A DNA stretch of 21,241 nt from a virus. Made by a program: the position numbers and the translations under genes. Positions 1 to 8,343 of the stretch are shown here, in pieces. Location of the stretch: IMG/VR virus record IMGVR_UViG_3300042337_000084, positions 1-21,241 of that record; one strand, 5' to 3'. The notes beneath the pieces were generated by a model. It saw nothing but the letters and a program-made list of their open reading frames with translations, did no database searches and was not told the DNA's origin. How positions within the stretch are numbered: the first letter of the stretch is position 1; each line of letters opens with the position of its first letter.

Positions 1-375
1 CCCTCTAAGTCCTCCGATGCTAACAGCGCCTTGATTTTCGCTAGAGCGTCCATCAGCCCCGGTAACTCTGACCGAGACAACGTAAATATCATCCACCCGT
101 TCTTTATTCGTAATTTGAGTTGAGAGTCGATGGAGGTTACAGAGTTGTTGCGTGGCTCCCGCGTTGGCATATAGCACCTGCTTTCCTGATAGGTTCAGCA
201 GGTCAAACGGTTTGGCGCTAGGGTCTAGGCCAATCTGCTTGCAGCGATAGTTGTAATACTGCACCTTCTGAACTTGGTTTAGCCCCGACAAGTCCCCTTT
301 GGTTACGATAGATTCGATAATCGCTGGATCAATAACAGCGACTTCACCCTTTGGCATACTGATTACGTTACTCAT
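1..375 (-). CDS. Probable phage single-strand annealing/recombination protein, C-terminus cut by window edge
   Basis: The first 125 codons of a leftward gene are visible, from ATG at 375-373 with GAGGGG placed just upstream; the rest lies beyond base 1. Residues 27-78 contain the block GDLSGLNQVQKVQYYNYRCK, then IGLDP, a KPFD turn and LSGKQVLYANAGATQQL. From memory this layout (GDLS, Y-Y-x(2)-C, GL-P, PF, LYA--GAT-QL) recurs in a family of phage proteins found beside exonucleases. It starts 10 bases after the YqaJ-type exonuclease gene, the usual arrangement of an exonuclease/annealing-protein pair (lambda Exo/Bet, RecE/RecT). The annealing role is therefore inferred mainly from context. The protein is not an obvious Bet or RecT by sequence. 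The alternative is a conserved phage protein of unknown function. Confidence 0.55.
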   Translation of the reverse strand, partial: MSNVISMPKGEVAVIDPAIIESIVTKGDLSGLNQVQKVQYYNYRCKQIGLDPSAKPFDLLNLSGKQVLYANAGATQQLCNLHRLSTQITNKERVDDIYVVSVRVTGADGRSSENQGAVSIGGLRG

Positions 376-385
376 ATTTAGCCCC

Positions 386-1288
386 TCATTTGATTAAGAA
401 CCGGCGTGATCCGGGTTGTTCTACTACGAACTTCTCATAAGTCTCTGGCAATGCCTTCTTCAACAACTCAGCATTGAACTTCTTACTAGACTTACTGGTT
501 TTCCAAGTGGCTAGGATCGAGCCATCAAAGGCTTTCAATGTAGCCTTGGACAGCATGGCTGCTTGAATCATTTCCTTCAAGCCTTCCTCGGCCTCTTCGT
601 ACTCTTTCATCTTGGCCTTGATCTGCCCTAACTGCTGGCAGGCTAACTCAAGCGCAGCATTGGCTACCATGTCCTGACCATCATCCACCTTGTAGATGTC
701 CTTGGTAACGTCAGCCATCGTCTGCGGGTTCCAGTTTTTAGTCTGCACCTGCGCCCAGAACTCAGCCATAGCCCGGATGTGAGCCTCTGCCTCTAGTTGT
801 GTGAAGTTTTGCGGGAAGTGGCATAACTCTTGACCGCCAAACAGAACCACCAAGACTATGTTCTGCACCCCCTCATGCACAATCTGCTCGTGCATACACT
901 GAGCGCGATACTTCTCAGAAACCATCTCAGTGCCATCATCGCCATACTTCTTGCGCTGGTGTACGCCGAGGTTCTTGACCTCGTAGAGCGTCTTGCCATC
1001 GGATGAGATGTAGTCAAAGTGGGATGCCAGCCAGTTGTGCTTTGGGTGTCTGAGCGCATAGTCTGCGTCTTTGAACTCCCAACCCCATCGGCCTGCTGCG
1101 ATCCGCATGATTGGTTCTTGCAGGTGCAAGCCCATCTGTACTGGTTCTACGTCTGATAGATCAGGCTTTTCCCGCTGCCCAATCTTGGTAAGGTAAACCT
1201 CTCCACCCTTACCTTCTGCAATCATGCCTGCATCTGATGACCAGATAGCCTGATCGCGTACTGCCAAGTCTGCTTCGCTTAGTGCCAT
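386..1288 (-). CDS. YqaJ-type viral recombinase / lambda-Exo-like exonuclease
   Basis: This 300-residue protein looks like a PD-(D/E)XK nuclease of the YqaJ/lambda exonuclease group, which resects double-stranded DNA ends 5' to 3' so that an annealing protein can pair the exposed strand. A conserved-type Glu is at about residue 58 (GLHLQEP). The core is D92 in ASHFDY followed by E103-x-K105 in LYEVKN, then Q130 in KYRAQ and a strand-rich stretch (VQNIVLVVLFGG, 141-152). The C-terminal 100 residues are Lys/Glu-rich helix. The length fits the family. The start has a strong GAGGGGG site and shares a 14-base leader with the gene at 3609. The annealing-protein candidate follows directly, so the two probably act together in replication or recombination. 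Confidence 0.82.
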   Translation of the reverse strand: MALSEADLAVRDQAIWSSDAGMIAEGKGGEVYLTKIGQREKPDLSDVEPVQMGLHLQEPIMRIAAGRWGWEFKDADYALRHPKHNWLASHFDYISSDGKTLYEVKNLGVHQRKKYGDDGTEMVSEKYRAQCMHEQIVHEGVQNIVLVVLFGGQELCHFPQNFTQLEAEAHIRAMAEFWAQVQTKNWNPQTMADVTKDIYKVDDGQDMVANAALELACQQLGQIKAKMKEYEEAEEGLKEMIQAAMLSKATLKAFDGSILATWKTSKSSKKFNAELLKKALPETYEKFVVEQPGSRRFLIK

Positions 1289-1314
1289 ATCAGCCCCCTC
1301 ATAAATTAGCGAAA

Positions 1315-2034
1315 TTAAATACTACCAAGGAAATATCGTTTATGCAAGATAGGTCTATTAAGTTTAAGCCAATCTTCTGCTTCCATTGTGTTTTTGCTGT
1401 CAGAGCCAAAGCCACGCCCGATTGTGCTACTACCCACGTGGTGAACGTAGGCACGGGATAAGAAGTGTTTGAACCCGTTGTCTGCCATGTCAGCGCAGGC
1501 CACGTTGTCTGAGTAGAAGTTGATCGGCGGGAATCCGGGCCAGCCTTCCTTGTCCACACTAGCAAACAATGGAGCAGTCCATTCCACTTGTGCAATGGTT
1601 TCCTCGCTTGCCCACTTCATGCCTGCCCACTGGTCGGTTTCTTGCTTAAACCTAATGTTCTGAGGCATGGTAGCCATGTTGCTACGGGCAGATACAAAGC
1701 CCACCTTATGCCCCTGTTGCTTCAGGATAACCCTGTCATGAGTCAGTAGCCAGTAGGTATTGGGGTCAAGAACTACGTCATCGTTAGCCATGATGACTGT
1801 CTCATGCCCATCCAGAAAGACTTGGGTTATGGCGTGGTTAAAGGAATCTCCGAAATTGTCCTTATCGTTTTCCCCTATCCACTTCACAAAGTCCCAACAC
1901 TGGATCGTATTCCAATCGCCGTAGACGTAAACCTGTGTTTCCCGTGGAACGTACTGCTCAATACTTGCCAACAGTACATTGATGCTTTTACTGCCCTTTG
2001 TCGCTATGACTATCGGTGTCACGTTCTTCTCCAT
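1315..2034 (-). CDS. Glycosyltransferase, GT-A / family-2-like
   Basis: The protein has 239 residues from ATG 2034-2032 (AGGA lies 6-9 bases upstream); a start 12 codons earlier is possible but less convincing. The N-terminus TPIVIATKGSKSINVLLASI is the first strand and helix typical of GT-A transferases. VIMANDDVVLDP (80-91) supplies the acidic DxD-like motif for metal and nucleotide-sugar binding. The C-terminal half has YSDNVACADMADNGF and a late His pair (YVHHVGSS, 196-203), as in phage family-2 enzymes. It probably transfers a sugar from a nucleotide donor. The acceptor (host surface glycan, virion protein or DNA) cannot be read from sequence. It lies downstream of an RmlB-type dehydratase in the same leftward transcript, so the dehydratase may make its donor. 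Its first 47 bases overlap the end of a small membrane-protein gene. Confidence 0.75.
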   Translation of the reverse strand: MEKNVTPIVIATKGSKSINVLLASIEQYVPRETQVYVYGDWNTIQCWDFVKWIGENDKDNFGDSFNHAITQVFLDGHETVIMANDDVVLDPNTYWLLTHDRVILKQQGHKVGFVSARSNMATMPQNIRFKQETDQWAGMKWASEETIAQVEWTAPLFASVDKEGWPGFPPINFYSDNVACADMADNGFKHFLSRAYVHHVGSSTIGRGFGSDSKNTMEAEDWLKLNRPILHKRYFLGSI

Positions 2035-2101
2035 ATCCAATCCTAATTCCCAAATAGATGACCAGCACAATAAAACCTATGCCAATCAATGCCTCATACA
2101 C
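1988..2101 (-). CDS. Small single-span membrane protein (37 aa, GTG start)
   Basis: A short frame starts at GTG 2101-2099, two bases after the stop of the upstream gene, with GAGGTG positioned as ribosome site. It encodes a Met-Tyr-Glu start, one hydrophobic helix (ALIGIGFIVLVIYLGIRIGY) and a charged tail (EERDTDSHSDKGQ). The end overlaps the glycosyltransferase start by 47 bases in another frame. Hydrophobicity pattern, spacing and ribosome site argue that it is real; the long overlap and GTG start argue caution. The predicted topology is one inner-membrane span with a hydrophilic C-terminus. Function is unknown. Holin, antiholin or membrane tether for the sugar enzymes would all fit. Confidence 0.5.
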   Translation of the reverse strand: MYEALIGIGFIVLVIYLGIRIGYGEERDTDSHSDKGQ

Positions 2102-2103
2102 GT

Positions 2104-2301
2104 TTACACCTCGTCTATCGTGACCTTCACACGCACTGGTATAGCCTTGAGTTTAACCCAGTAGGGGTTGTCTTCAAGCCATGCAGCGGCGTGGTTACGG
2201 GTACGAAATAGCAGGGTCTTGAGTGGCTGTGTAGGGTCAGACAAGTCTTGTACAAAGCCACGCTGGTACTGCAAAGCCCAACATAGTTTCTTCATAGCCA
2301 T
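2104..2301 (-). CDS. Small conserved-type phage protein of unknown function (65 aa)
   Basis: Leftward ATG 2301-2299 is preceded by GGGAG seven bases upstream and overlaps the last 10 bases of the dehydratase gene. An alternative start at 2295 gives an ATGA overlap. The protein begins MAMKKLCWALQYQRGFVQDL and contains LLFRTRNHAAAWL and KAIPVRVKVTIDE. Small phage proteins with a W-x-LQY opening, an LFRTR motif and a closing V-V-V-I strand are common, but I know of no function for them. It is Arg/Lys-rich, with no membrane segment or cysteine pair. It sits inside the sugar-gene cluster and is probably translationally coupled to the dehydratase. Confidence 0.7.
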   Translation of the reverse strand: MAMKKLCWALQYQRGFVQDLSDPTQPLKTLLFRTRNHAAAWLEDNPYWVKLKAIPVRVKVTIDEV

Positions 2302-3296
2302 TTTTTATTCTCCCTAAACCAGCCGCAAACGCGCCAAAGTGTATCGGTCACGCTCTTTGGCTTCCAGCCAAGACTCTCCATCAATGAGCCATCCAAGGCA
2401 TATCTCAGGTCGTGTCCGGGCCTGCTGGAGTGAAAGTCCACCATTTCGTAGGACAGTTTCTTATGCAGAATCATGGATATGGCTTCAGCCATCATCAGGT
2501 TATCCCATTCCTCGCTGCCAACGATGTTGAACTTCGGGCATTTGGCACCACCGTAATCGTTCTCAATTTCAGGATTATTGGTGAGCAAAAATAGCAATGC
2601 GTCTGCTACTTCTCTTGCATGGATGTAGTGCCTAGAACCTGCCTTGCTCTTATCCGCATTGGAGTGGATAGTGATTGTCTCGCCTGCCAATGCCTTACGG
2701 ATACACATTGGGATGAACTTCTCTGGCGATTGACGCTCACCAAATACGTTCATGGTGTGTGTAATGTATATCGGTAGACCGTATGTATTCTGATAGGCCA
2801 CGGCAAACTCTTCACCACCTGCCTTGCTTGCGGAGTAAGGATTGGTGCAGTTGTAGCGGTCACGCTCCTTGTACTTGATCCCTTCCGGTGCTGGCCCAAA
2901 CACCTCATCGGTGCTGAAGTAGATAAAGCGCTTTAGGTCTTGGGTACGGGCAAAGTCTAGGATATTCACCGTTCCTATGACGTTATCCATCGCAAACTCA
3001 AGCGGATGGTCAATAGATCGGTCTACATGGCTTCCAGCCGCTAGGTGCAAGATGATGTCTACCTTCCCAATATGGGCGGCTACGTGTGGATTTATAGCCG
3101 CTTTGAGGTCGTGGTGAACCACCTTGACGCGCCCTGTCGCTTGAGGCATTTGCTTTAGCGCATCGCTTAAACGGTTCAGATTGCCTGAGTAATCCAGCCG
3201 ATCAAGGCTTATGACCTGCCAATCTGTGCGCTCTAGCAAGTAAGCAATAACGTGATGCCCAATAAATCCGGCACCACCAGTGACTAAAACTCTCAT
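2292..3296 (-). CDS. dTDP-glucose 4,6-dehydratase-type (RmlB-like) SDR enzyme
   Basis: This 334-residue enzyme of the extended short-chain dehydrogenase family has all RmlB-type marks. The NAD-binding GGAGFIG is at residues 7-13. HLAAGSHVDRSI is at 84-95. STDEVFG (128-134) carries the Asp-Glu pair that catalyses dehydration. Y154-SAS-K158 is the YxxxK pair and SRPGHDLRYALD (291-302) is the substrate-side motif. The reaction would be NDP-glucose to NDP-4-keto-6-deoxyglucose, the entry to rhamnose and other deoxysugars. The nucleotide specificity is inferred. The ATG at 3296-3294 was chosen because GGAGGGG lies just upstream and the Rossmann fold starts there; an in-frame extension to 3401 is less likely because another gene occupies that stretch. 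The ATG overlaps the stop of a small membrane-protein gene. No other RmlA/C/D gene is visible, so host enzymes would have to supply or finish the pathway. Confidence 0.88.
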   Translation of the reverse strand: MRVLVTGGAGFIGHHVIAYLLERTDWQVISLDRLDYSGNLNRLSDALKQMPQATGRVKVVHHDLKAAINPHVAAHIGKVDIILHLAAGSHVDRSIDHPLEFAMDNVIGTVNILDFARTQDLKRFIYFSTDEVFGPAPEGIKYKERDRYNCTNPYSASKAGGEEFAVAYQNTYGLPIYITHTMNVFGERQSPEKFIPMCIRKALAGETITIHSNADKSKAGSRHYIHAREVADALLFLLTNNPEIENDYGGAKCPKFNIVGSEEWDNLMMAEAISMILHKKLSYEMVDFHSSRPGHDLRYALDGSLMESLGWKPKSVTDTLWRVCGWFRENKKWL

Positions 3297-3421
3297 TTCT
3301 CGCCCCTCCAGATCAAGATAGCCACGATGATAAAGAATATCATCACAGCCCACGCTATGCCCTGAGCCGCGTCTGCTGCCTGTTGGGTTCTCAGCCACCA
3401 ATCATAGTTAGAGGGGTTCAT
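3293..3421 (-). CDS. Small single-span membrane protein (42 aa)
   Basis: A 42-codon frame starts at ATG 3421-3419, forming an ATGA overlap with the stop of the 63-residue gene, and ends at TGA 3295-3293, forming an ATGA overlap with the dehydratase start. Coupling at both ends is strong evidence that it is translated. The protein has a polar N-terminus (MNPSNYDWWLRTQQAADAAQ), one hydrophobic helix (GIAWAVMIFFIIVAILIW) and an RGEK end, which suggests an N-out/C-in single span. Function is unknown. A regulator or anchor of envelope or sugar enzymes, or a small lysis protein, would be compatible with its size. Confidence 0.68.
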   Translation of the reverse strand: MNPSNYDWWLRTQQAADAAQGIAWAVMIFFIIVAILIWRGEK

Positions 3422-3609
3422 TTAGCCACCTCATCGACTATGCGCTGGATCATTGAGCAATGGTGCCGTATCTCTGTGGCTACCCCATCGATGTCTTGCC
3501 AGTTTGGTTTGTAGGCATTGCGGCTAAGTCTATTTAACTCAGTCATTAACCTATTCATCTGCACTACATGACTGCCAAGGTCAAACAACATTGGATCAGT
3601 ATTTCTCAT
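3418..3609 (-). CDS. Hypothetical protein, 63 aa, helical
   Basis: Start ATG 3609-3607 has AGGGGG upstream in the same 14-base leader that precedes the exonuclease gene. The sequence starts MRNTDPMLFDLGSHVVQMNR and is mostly amphipathic helix, with two histidines and one cysteine near the C-terminal third (EIRHHCSMIQRIVDEVAK). There is no membrane segment and no recognisable catalytic motif. It overlaps the next gene by ATGA. I do not recognise the family. A small DNA- or protein-binding regulator is possible but not shown. Confidence 0.65.
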   Translation of the reverse strand: MRNTDPMLFDLGSHVVQMNRLMTELNRLSRNAYKPNWQDIDGVATEIRHHCSMIQRIVDEVAK

Positions 3610-3626
3610 ATCAGCCCCCTGATTGA

Positions 3627-3812
3627 TTAGTCTAGTCTTGCTTCTTGGTCTAACTGCAATCTCCGTTCCTTGGCCTTGGTAAGTAGGTCTGCTACCTCGT
3701 TAGCCTCTTGTCTGATTCGATGCAATCTCTCAGCCAATTGACGCTCTACCACTAGGCTTTGCAGTGCTACATTCATCGCTTCTTGAATCGTATATTCACG
3801 CTGTACATTCAT
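3627..3812 (-). CDS. Hypothetical coiled-coil protein, 61 aa
   Basis: I chose ATG 3812-3810 because GGAGG lies six bases upstream; a 20-codon N-terminal extension has no ribosome site and would run over the noncoding leader. The protein MNVQREYTIQEAMNVALQSL continues as a highly charged helix (ERQLAERLHRIRQEANEVAD, then AKERRLQLDQEARLD) that reads as a coiled coil over about residues 20-60. It is preceded by the CTAATCAA leader motif. Function unknown. Confidence 0.65.
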   Translation of the reverse strand: MNVQREYTIQEAMNVALQSLVVERQLAERLHRIRQEANEVADLLTKAKERRLQLDQEARLD

Positions 3813-3874: not shown

Positions 3875-4264
3875 TTATGCACTGTCAAGAACTTTGTTGT
3901 ATTTTTTTTGATTCTCTTTCTCTGATACAACACGCAGGTTAGAGGGAACGTGTAGCCCAGACACGGTAGCGCCACGTAGGGGGTAGATATGATCGACAAC
4001 ATATCTTGACCCTGTGGCCTGCGTTAAATGTACAGCCTGTAGGTAAATGGCCTTGATCTCTTGCCAATCTCCATCGGTTAGCCAATGGGGTACGCAACGG
4101 TTTGGAACCGAAACTGACCTGCCGTTTGGATGAGTCTTTTTACGCGCTGCGGTCTTGGCTTTGTGGCAGGTTTTACAGATTGAATACAGGCCATCTACGG
4201 TTGTATATCGCTGGTAAAACTCTGTTACGTACTTAATTTCTTGGCACGACTTGCACATTTTCAT
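3875..4264 (-). CDS. HNH endonuclease with N-terminal Cys4 zinc motif
   Basis: The 129-residue protein starts at ATG 4264-4262, with AAGGAG five bases upstream; a longer frame to 4291 lacks such a site. Residues 4-33 hold two CxxC pairs (MCKSC and ICKTC), a small zinc-binding element. The HNH fold is at 85-125: VVDHIYPLRG gives D91-H92, PSNLRVVSEKEN gives the central Asn, and the KKYN end matches phage HNH enzymes. It should nick or cut DNA with one metal ion. It is a single free-standing gene, so it could be a homing endonuclease, a packaging or replication nickase, or a host-DNA nuclease. It is not next to the terminase genes; it lies beside the origin-like repeats, whose DnaA box ends 15 bases before its start codon. 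Confidence 0.83.
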   Translation of the reverse strand: MKMCKSCQEIKYVTEFYQRYTTVDGLYSICKTCHKAKTAARKKTHPNGRSVSVPNRCVPHWLTDGDWQEIKAIYLQAVHLTQATGSRYVVDHIYPLRGATVSGLHVPSNLRVVSEKENQKKYNKVLDSA

Positions 4265-4278
4265 GGCTGCTCCTTGGT

Positions 4279-4451
4279 TGTGGATAACCAAAGGATAACA
4301 TAAGGATAACTAACTTTGGGATATATCCTATATACGTCTTATTACGGGCGTATACTATAGGACATATATTATAAATATAGAACGTATACTATACGCCCTT
4401 ACCTAGATTACAAAACATATAGCCTATAGGTTTGGATTGGGGTGTGGATAA
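4279..4451. other. Candidate replication origin: DnaA boxes, GGATAAC iterons, AT-rich inverted repeat
   Basis: Two perfect DnaA-box sequences (TTATCCACA read on the minus strand) lie at 4279-4287 and 4443-4451 in the same orientation. GGATAAC occurs at 4282-4288, 4293-4299 and 4304-4310, exactly 11 bases apart, and again inside the second box. Between the boxes is an AT-rich segment. It contains a 10-bp palindrome (4319-4328), an 11-bp direct repeat CGTATACTATA at 4349-4359 and 4383-4393, and outer GGGCG/CGCCC arms (4346 and 4398) that close a 53-bp imperfect inverted repeat. The stretch has no gene. Boxes, helically phased repeats and an unwinding-prone core are the standard parts of an origin. 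Part of it may also be the promoter region for the leftward HNH-to-recombination genes. Confidence 0.5.
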
Positions 4452-4769: not shown

Positions 4770-4949
4770 TTATAGAATAGCCGGATCGTGAATCACTGGA
4801 TCGCCATTCATCTTAGCGGCAAGAATAACGGTTACTTCGTAAGACTTTTTTGCTTTGAATTGTTTCGCCGCTATCAATTGCGCGTCATAGGATCGCAGCG
4901 CTTCAACGGTTATTTCTTTCCCCTTGTAGAATGCAATATAGGTAAACAT
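4770..4949 (-). CDS. Small phage protein of unknown function (59 aa)
   Basis: I chose ATG 4949-4947, with AGAGAGG eight bases upstream; an 11-codon extension has no such site. The protein MFTYIAFYKGKEITVEALRS continues with AAKQFKAKKSYEVTVILA and ends in a short acidic/polar tail. The pattern (YKG-KEI-V.., then Q..AA..FKAKKSY.V.V.LA) recurs in small phage proteins I have seen, without a known role. It is predicted as a compact alpha/beta domain with no membrane segment. It is the last gene before the terminator and follows ardC by 85 bases containing stem-loops. Confidence 0.75.
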   Translation of the reverse strand: MFTYIAFYKGKEITVEALRSYDAQLIAAKQFKAKKSYEVTVILAAKMNGDPVIHDPAIL

Positions 4950-4972
4950 AGTGAAAACCTCTCTTAGGAAAT

Positions 4973-5023
4973 GCCGGGACAATTCCCGGCCCGTTATCCC
5001 CTACCACGTAGGGCAAGGGATAA
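4973..5023 (-). other. Two stem-loops between ardC and the next gene
   Basis: GCCGGGA 4973-4979 pairs perfectly with TCCCGGC 4984-4990 around a four-base loop. The next element can fold two ways: CCCTAC 4999-5004 with GTAGGG 5008-5013 around three bases, or TTATCCC 4994-5000 with GGGATAA 5017-5023. Neither hairpin is followed by a T-run on the minus strand, so they look more like RNA-stability, processing or attenuation elements in the leftward message than full terminators. They sit just upstream of the ribosome site of the 59-residue gene. Confidence 0.45.
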
Positions 5024-5034
5024 AAGGCCGGAAA

Positions 5035-5922
5035 CTAGGCCGCTAACGGCATTTCTTCGCTAGATTCTTGCTTTGCTTTGCCGCCATTTATTAGCCAATC
5101 CATACCGGCCTGCGCTTTACCTGCCGCGCTAATAATGAATTTTTTGTCATTCTTGAGCGCTTTGAGCCATGATTCAATATAGGCCGCATGGCGTAAATCC
5201 CCGTCTAGGCCGCAATGAGCGCAAAGCATGGCCGCGCCAAGTTCCGCGATTAGTTCCTCATAGGCGTAGGCATGATCGCCAAAGCGCTTACCCTTTTCAC
5301 GATTCAAGCGTGATTCATGGCCTGTAGCATGAATCGCCTCATGTAATAGGGTAGCGTAGTAGTTTTCCCGGCTAGAAAACTGGGCCTTTTCCGGCATATG
5401 GATCGAATCATTAGACGGGCGGAAAAACGCCTCATTTCCGCCATGATGCAGGCCGCCGGATAGTTTCAAAGTATCGGTTAGCGCTTGTGCCTTGTCGCAT
5501 GGCTCCCATGATTCGGGCGCTATCTCTTCGCGTACTGGTAGGGAAACGTCTTCGCATTGATCTAGATTGAACACGTAGTAGTGTTTAAGCATAGGCACGT
5601 GCGTTATTTGATCGGGGTTAGTCTTATCTTTTACAGCCAAGGGTTTCCAGAAAACAATGGGAGTACCCTTTTCGCCTGTTTTGATATTGCCGCCCAGTGC
5701 TTGTGCTTGTTTGAACGTAACCCATGCATTGCTGGTAAAGGTAGAACCCATAAGGGTCAAGAATGTCCAGTTAGCGCCACGATAGACTGTACCGCTAGCA
5801 GGGTTCCATGGTTGGCCGTTGTGCTTGCCATTTCTAACGTTTTTCCATGGTTTAACCCATGGGGCAGTGCCGTTTTCTAATTCAGTAATGATCCGATCAG
5901 TAATTACTTGTGCAATGTCCAT
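5035..5922 (-). CDS. ardC: ArdC-type antirestriction protein (ssDNA-binding domain plus zincin metallopeptidase)
   Basis: The 295-residue protein has the two ArdC parts. Residues 1-125 match the N-terminal ssDNA-binding domain: ITDRIITELENGTAPWVKPW, then a GTVYRGANW block, and TGEKGTPIVFWK followed by YYVFNLDQC. The C-terminal half is a zincin peptidase with H194-E195-AI-H198 in LLHEAIHATGHESRLNRE and a later acidic helix (YAYEELIAELGAAMLC) supplying the third zinc ligand. ArdC proteins in plasmids protect incoming DNA from restriction. ATG 5922-5920 was chosen because AAGGGG precedes it; an in-frame extension to 6018 overlaps the upstream small gene. It starts one base after that gene's stop. 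Early leftward position fits a protein needed just after DNA entry. Confidence 0.88.
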   Translation of the reverse strand: MDIAQVITDRIITELENGTAPWVKPWKNVRNGKHNGQPWNPASGTVYRGANWTFLTLMGSTFTSNAWVTFKQAQALGGNIKTGEKGTPIVFWKPLAVKDKTNPDQITHVPMLKHYYVFNLDQCEDVSLPVREEIAPESWEPCDKAQALTDTLKLSGGLHHGGNEAFFRPSNDSIHMPEKAQFSSRENYYATLLHEAIHATGHESRLNREKGKRFGDHAYAYEELIAELGAAMLCAHCGLDGDLRHAAYIESWLKALKNDKKFIISAAGKAQAGMDWLINGGKAKQESSEEMPLAA

Positions 5923-7018: not shown

Positions 7019-7242
7019 GTAAGTCTGTGCGGGGGATTGATGTAAAGAAGACTGCCGAGGCTTGGTTCAAGCAGGCGGTCAATATTGATAAGGATTACTT
7101 TTGGCGCTGCATGAAAAGCCATAAGGAAAACTCTAAACCTAATGGAGACTATCCTTACTGCGGTATACACGCTGAAACATATAAACTGATGGTTAATCAC
7201 CCTTGGGGTCAGGAGTATCTAAAAATTGTCAAACTTAAATAA
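7015..7242 (+). CDS. Hypothetical protein, 75 aa
   Basis: The ATG at 7015 overlaps the upstream TGA, a better choice than the longer frame beginning at 6904. The protein MSKSVRGIDVKKTAEAWFKQ continues with DKDYFWRCMKSHKENSK, YPYCGIHAETYKLMVNHPWG and ends KIVKLK. It is basic with scattered Trp, His and two Cys. I do not recognise it. It overlaps the start of the first methyltransferase by 17 bases. Confidence 0.65.
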   Translation: MSKSVRGIDVKKTAEAWFKQAVNIDKDYFWRCMKSHKENSKPNGDYPYCGIHAETYKLMVNHPWGQEYLKIVKLK

Positions 7243-7789
7243 GGTCTTGCCTCAGATTGCGCCCCACTGTACAGATATGTGGGAACACTTCACCACCCTT
7301 AGAGACTACGCACAAGAGTGTTCATCGGTAGTTGAGATGGGGGTAAGAGGCGGCTGCTCTGCCTACGCCTTGGCTGCTGGTTTGGAAGCCAGCCCCTACA
7401 AAGGCAAGTGGATGCTCTACTTGGATATTAACGCCTGCCAAAACCCTAAGTTAGAGGAACTCTGCAAACTCTCTGACATCAGCATCGAGTTTAAGCAGGC
7501 GGATTCCCGCCACATTGAGATACCTACCTGTGACCTACTTTTTATCGATACGCTCCATACCTATGGGCAGTTGAAGTTAGAACTATCGCTCCACCATGAG
7601 AAGGCTAAGAAGTACATCATCATGCACGACACCGATGCCCCTTGGGGGTTTAAGAACGAGGTTGATGATGGCTCACCTGACCGTGGGCTTTGGCCTGCCA
7701 TTGAGGAGTTTGAAAAGGAACACCCTGAGTGGCAGGTGCATGAGCGCTTTCGTAACTGCCACGGGCTAACCATACTGTTGAGAGCCTAA
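7226..7789 (+). CDS. Class I methyltransferase-like protein, CmcI / Methyltransf_24 type
   Basis: The 187-residue protein starts at TTG 7226 (AGGAG ten bases upstream). An ATG at codon 18 is possible, but the earlier residues look like domain sequence. Motif I is SSVVEMGVRGGCSAYALA (33-50), the SAM-binding loop. WMLYLDIN (62-69) is motif II. LLFIDTLHTYGQLKLEL (104-120) and YIIMHDTDAPW (130-140) match the metal-linked D...H/D residues of the family that includes CmcI and small-molecule or sugar O-methyltransferases. The substrate is unknown. A capping sugar methyl group on a surface or virion glycan would fit the sugar genes in the left arm, though the two sets are transcribed separately. It is followed by a second, unrelated methyltransferase with a one-base stop/start overlap. 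Confidence 0.72.
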   Translation: MSNLNKVLPQIAPHCTDMWEHFTTLRDYAQECSSVVEMGVRGGCSAYALAAGLEASPYKGKWMLYLDINACQNPKLEELCKLSDISIEFKQADSRHIEIPTCDLLFIDTLHTYGQLKLELSLHHEKAKKYIIMHDTDAPWGFKNEVDDGSPDRGLWPAIEEFEKEHPEWQVHERFRNCHGLTILLRA

Positions 7790-8343
7790 TGCACGAATCA
7801 GCCATTAAAAATGGCAAACGGTTTTTTGAAACCTATGCCAAGCATAAAGACGGTGGTGTGGTAGTTGACATTGGTAGCCAAGACGTAAACGGTAGTCTTA
7901 GGTCTTATACCCCTGAACGGTTTAAGTACGTTGGCGTAGATTTCAAAGAGGCAGCAAACGTGGATGTGGTGCTTAAAGAGCCATACGTCTTGCCATTTGA
8001 GTCTGAGTCTGTAGACATTGTGGTGTCTTCTTCATGCCTAGAACACTCTGAGTTCTTTTGGCTAACCTTTTTGGAAATAGTCAGGATTACTAAGCCTGAT
8101 GGCTTGATCTACATCAATGCACCCTCTGGTGGCCCTCACCACGCCTTTCCTGTTGACTGCTGGCGGTTTAGGCTAGACGCAAGCATGGCGCTTATGAACT
8201 GGGCTAACCACAATGGATATAACACTATCTTGCTAGAAGCCTTTGTTGATAGCGCTCCGATATGGCACGACATGGTAGCAATCTACATTAAAGACAAAAA
8301 CCTGTCCCACCTTTACCCAGATAGGATTGATCTTGAAGTTTGA
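7789..8343 (+). CDS. SAM-dependent methyltransferase, Methyltransf_11 type
   Basis: The protein has 184 residues. Motif I is GGVVVDIGSQDVNGSL (22-37), then YVGVDFKEAANVDVV with the acidic residue that contacts the ribose, LPFESESVDIVVSSSCLEHS (69-87) as motif IV with the usual D-I/V core, and LEIVRITKPDGLIYINAPSG (95-114) as the strand after it. This is the common small class I fold used on metabolites, sugars and lipids, and lacks the DPPY/NPPF motif of adenine-N6 DNA methylases or the PC motif of cytosine-C5 ones. The start overlaps the previous stop (TAATG). Substrate unknown. Confidence 0.75.
   Translation: MHESAIKNGKRFFETYAKHKDGGVVVDIGSQDVNGSLRSYTPERFKYVGVDFKEAANVDVVLKEPYVLPFESESVDIVVSSSCLEHSEFFWLTFLEIVRITKPDGLIYINAPSGGPHHAFPVDCWRFRLDASMALMNWANHNGYNTILLEAFVDSAPIWHDMVAIYIKDKNLSHLYPDRIDLEV

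Follow-up and report, generated by a model that had tools for sequence, protein, structure and literature searches.

A block of ~170 bp in the window analyzed here, a stretch of 21,241 nucleotides of DNA from an uncultured virus of bacteria, carries DnaA boxes next to an AT-rich core and is probably the replication origin of this phage, employing the host initiator DnaA; judged from the sequence, this is the best explanation of the block. The reading rests on the conservation of the boxes and of their 11- or 12-bp phasing, in a phage family without a recognizable initiator, helicase, or polymerase. Many environmental phages lack recognizable replication genes; for this family, the conserved DnaA-box module offers a concrete candidate origin. 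What is new is the combination of DnaA boxes and an AT-rich region, with no recognized initiator, in a phage family without recognizable replisome genes, and we found no paper describing this element.

Architecture of the block

The window matches parts of a 41,734-nt contig (G001) exactly. The ends of this contig are identical to each other (positions 1-3634 and 38101-41734; 3,634 nt), and the window spans the join. The identical ends reflect either an assembly overlap or circular permutation, and since the first 3,634 nt repeat the last, the unique genome measures 38,100 nt. The features of the block are compiled in Table 1.

Table 1. Features of the candidate origin block and the neighboring gene, in window positions
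Feature	Coordinates	Strand	Remarks
Endonuclease VII/HNH-like gene	3875..4264	-	PHROG endonuclease VII, 5e-19; starts just past the array; neighbor, outside the module
Proximal DnaA box TTATCCACA (third unit of the 11-bp series)	4279..4287	-	Exact match; invariant among the four closest elements
Second degenerate box TTATCC (TTATCCTTT)	4293..4298	-	Full TTATCCACA in L217
First degenerate box TTATCC (TTATCCTTA)	4304..4309	-	Full TTATCCACA in L217
AT-rich core with TATAG motifs, candidate unwinding region	4316..4432	-	68% AT
Imperfect inverted repeat	4343..4401	not applicable	28-nt arms, 3-nt center, two CGTATAGTATACG-type palindromes
Distal DnaA box TTATCCACA	4443..4451	-	Exact match; invariant among the four closest elements

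A preliminary description of this DNA had reported two same-orientation TTATCCACA boxes around an AT-rich core and three GGATAAC copies at an exact 11-base spacing, and both observations proved exact in position and spacing. The copies lie at 4282, 4293, and 4304, and a fourth, at 4446, falls within the distal box. The copy at 4282 falls within the proximal box, so that the GGATAAC series and the pair of boxes do not count as separate observations. Of the three 11-bp repeats, one alone is a complete DnaA box; the likeliest reading of the two inner TTATCC units is that of degenerate boxes, given that both are complete in the relative L217. On the minus strand, the distal box (4451-4443) is followed by a short C-rich spacer, the core, and the series TTATCC-N5-TTATCC-N5-TTATCCACA (4309-4279), right after which come the ribosome-binding site and ATG of the endonuclease VII/HNH-like open reading frame.

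The boxes exceed what chance would give, and the core is unusually AT-rich. (i) No TTATCCACA site other than these two occurs in the 38.1-kb genome. (ii) In 300 genomes of equal size simulated with a Markov model, there was neither a TTATCC triple at 11 bp nor a pair of boxes on one strand within 200 bp of each other. (iii) The AT content of the core (68%) exceeds the genome-wide 52%, and just 0.4% of windows of that size reach it. Two further features were absent from the preliminary description, namely, the inverted repeat, the arms of which (4343-4370 and 4374-4401) are 79% complementary, and two copies of CGTATACTATA.

Conservation in related phages

The same block is found upstream of the HNH gene in all three other contigs with conserved core sequence, two of which overlap without any sequence difference. 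In an alignment of the window with L003, L226, and L217, 30 of 30 box positions were invariant versus 100 of 171 elsewhere (Fisher p=5e-7). Within the inverted repeat, a paired change between the window and L217 preserves the palindrome, and the single-strand fold of the repeat gave z values of about -1.9 to -2.4 in four relatives.

A terminase profile recruited 80 relatives. Among the loci with enough upstream DNA, 13, including some near-duplicates, contained clusters of TTATCCACA on the strand that does not encode the terminase, and g11 is an additional module-bearing case. Wherever the locus includes the exonuclease gene, the cluster sits upstream of this gene or its operon. The cores of the 13 loci have diverged strongly from one another, and the module is retained even where there is no HNH gene. 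Almost all short box spacings in the relatives (22/24) were 11 or 12 bp; the remaining two were 20 and 22. The array of L238 reads TTATCCACA, TTATACACA, TTATACACA, TTATTCACA, and its variant boxes TTATACACA and TTATTCACA fit the DnaA box consensus TTATNCACA, in which the fifth base is degenerate.

The HNH gene behaves differently. It clustered in 2 of 11 genomes versus 7 of 11 for the module, and an HNH homologue was undetectable in most module-bearing relatives. Since modules exist without it, we discarded the HNH gene as an origin component, and the earlier suggestion that its product nicks or processes the block found no support.

The search for the same block in relatives, proposed in the preliminary description, thus had a divided outcome: boxes and 11/12-bp phasing are kept in the nearer clade but are absent in more distant relatives, namely, g10 (L230), g13 (L279), MW202753, and MW202825. 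The DnaA boxes are therefore not essential across the whole family. As a helicase is also absent from these four, the family must have another way to start replication; use of a helicase in place of the boxes was ruled out, DnaB_C being absent from 15/15 family records.

The position of the module also bears on an alternative in which the array is a DnaA-responsive control of the leftward early operon (exonuclease and annealing protein) that activates or represses transcription without initiation. The module does lie upstream of that operon, several relatives have a TTGACA-type promoter past the boxes, and DnaA influences transcription at the lambda origin (PMC3985674). However, the gap between the last box and the promoter varies from about 12 to 78 nt, versus a constant internal spacing of 11-12 bp; no sigma-70-like promoter was found in the window, where the HNH start lies directly past the boxes; and a control role by itself leaves the AT-rich core and the distal box unexplained. 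We thus consider such a role unlikely, and less likely than an origin.

Gene content and the predicted mode of initiation

The leftward early genes encode a RecE/YqaJ-type exonuclease, a RecT-like annealing protein, an SSB-like protein, a RusA-like resolvase, a winged-helix protein, and ArdC. Only the exonuclease and the annealing protein are common to all 11 near-complete genomes. DnaB_C and DNA_pol_A were found in none of 15 family records, some of which are fragments (positive controls were included), and the annotated early-module proteins scanned gave no match to an initiator or Rep-like protein. The annealing protein (273 aa; L205:7226-8047, minus strand) is only partly contained in the window, where it occupies positions 1-375 and continues beyond the left end. 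It has itself no Pfam or NCBIfam match and no significant PHROG match, and its RecT-like assignment is based on a homologue in MW202753 at 27% identity and on the match to PHROG RecT, at 5e-24, of a single member among the nine in an alignment.

Several other features of the window and its relatives were recorded. The segments 2292-3401 (minus strand) and 7226-8343 (plus strand) hold a GDP-mannose dehydratase/epimerase-like gene and two methyltransferase-like genes, an unusual cargo at 38 kb. An inverted repeat with 23-nt arms (4983-5034) lies between ArdC and a small open reading frame (4770-4949); the surrounding stretch (4954-5045) is conserved in L003 and L004, and the repeat is possibly a terminator or regulatory hairpin. 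As to the host, the genome bins in which terminase relatives occurred were mixed: two were betaproteobacterial, and there was one each from Balneolaceae, Alphaproteobacteria, and Patescibacteria.

Multiple boxes beyond chance, an adjoining AT-rich region, and a layout conserved in the nearer clade are properties expected of DnaA-dependent origins, and these three are present here. The following steps may be proposed for the block as an origin. (i) Host DnaA would bind the distal box and the phased array, in which a single strong box is accompanied by two weak ones. (ii) Bound DnaA would melt the AT-rich core lying between them. (iii) The host DnaB helicase and replisome would be loaded. (iv) The phage exonuclease, RecT-like annealing protein, and SSB might then turn early copies into concatemers for packaging. 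Plasmid and chromosomal origins that depend on DnaA serve as the model for melting and helicase loading (PMC4980987). More tentatively, members of this clade, without helicase, polymerase, and initiator genes, could start from a miniature oriC with host DnaA alone and then switch to their own RecT-like recombination module; if so, a double-stranded DNA phage would replicate as an oriC-like replicon.

Two further analyses bear on this proposal. A basal unwinding system consists of a box, a spacer of at most 16 bp, and at least three DnaA-trios (PMC8287927). Within 16 bp of either window box, the best run of consecutive DnaA-trios was 1, and the box-spacer-trio reading of the window was therefore rejected; runs of 4-5 were seen in L261, L262, and L243 only, and in the shuffled core the probability of a run of three or more is 0.42. 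Cumulative GC skew, suggested earlier as a check, has a turning point ~0.35 kb from the block in g1 (a local minimum) and g3 (the detrended minimum), but the detrended minimum of g1 lies elsewhere; as the curve tracks gene orientation and is almost flat at the block, GC skew was dropped as independent evidence. Of the two modes of initiation that the preliminary description had offered, the one through host DnaA therefore draws on the conserved boxes and phasing and the lack of replisome genes and is weakened by the confounded skew and the box-less relatives, whereas initiation through a binder of the phage's own is unsupported, given that no candidate initiator gene was found.

The layout of the block resembles those of the P1 and RK2 plasmid origins. 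Iteron plasmid origins (P1 oriR, RK2 oriV, F, and pSC101) likewise have DnaA boxes by an AT-rich unwinding region with repeats, and in plasmid P1, DnaA-box arrays flank the origin on both sides, giving the same box-AT-box layout (PMC4980987). Unlike these plasmids, the phage has no recognized Rep initiator gene, and clear 17-bp repeats occur in some relatives only and not in the window (iterons of ~17-22 bp were tested). Bacterial oriC shares the TTATCCACA boxes adjoining an AT-rich region and the mixture of strong and weak boxes; the phage block is far smaller, resides on a phage, and lacks the DnaA-trio unit. Phage lambda encodes its own initiator O and helicase loader P, whereas neither function was recognized in this phage. 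The likeness to lambda lies in its origin region near pO, which likewise belongs to a phage and contains boxes for host DnaA (PMC3985674).

In a further alternative, the CTATAG repeats and palindromes rather than the boxes are the main sites, as iterons or operators for a putative phage protein, with DnaA only a helper, as in iteron plasmids. CTATAG clusters co-locate with DnaA boxes in relatives, ~17-bp repeats with a CTATAG core occur in L270, L276, and the box-less L230/g10, the palindrome is altered by paired substitution between the window and L217, and the early module encodes a small winged-helix protein (HTH_39). We nevertheless regard this alternative as very unlikely: the HTH_39 protein clustered in just 6 of 11 genomes, the scan of early-module proteins revealed nothing Rep-like, and the repeats also occur upstream of ArdC, fitting operators. 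The CTATAG repeats may form an element of their own, regulatory or iteron-like. The second CTATAG cluster, upstream of ArdC and without DnaA boxes, was seen at L230:6601-6900 (g10 6780 onward, with a period of ~17 bp), L231:2373, L236:5130, and L238:5307, and is probably a shared operator or iteron.

DnaA-box arrays across viral contigs

Same-strand TTATCC triples were found in viral contigs at 42 loci with a period of 10 bp, at least 119 with 11 bp, at least 120 with 12 bp, and 15 with 13 bp. For three perfect TTATCCACA boxes, the corresponding numbers were 0, at least 89, at least 40, and 3. Perfect triples are strongly concentrated at periods of 11 and 12 bp, apparently a widespread phage feature, and this phasing preference suggests that phage use of host DnaA, in replication or otherwise, may be common. 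DnaB_C was present in 10 of 23 array-bearing contigs versus 3 of 23 contigs of a rough comparison set, so the notion that array-bearing phages generally lack a helicase was rejected.

Because arrays occur in helicase-bearing phages and in terminal repeats, phage DnaA arrays are not always origins, which keeps alive the alternative that the boxes titrate host DnaA, stopping host re-initiation or freeing replisomes, with phage replication starting otherwise, for example by recombination. The frequency of arrays among viral contigs, including those of phages with their own helicase, and their location in terminal repeats (T5-like) or near the genome end (T7-like) are in its favor. Two strong boxes per genome are, however, few for titration, which moreover needs neither an AT-rich core nor a fixed layout of distal box and array, and that layout recurs; we therefore judge titration quite unlikely for the present block. 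Its likeness to the T5-like and T7-like arrays consists of tandem TTATCCACA-type boxes with ~11-bp spacing in noncoding DNA; it differs in that the examined T5-like and T7-like arrays are situated inside or close to terminal repeats, and these phages have their own replisome. Such arrays were located at MN095770.1 6414-6444, MK685668.1 103-136, and MZ326859.2 553-587, and include those of the T5-like phage Slocum (inside the terminal repeat) and the T7-like phage A7 (near the genome end).
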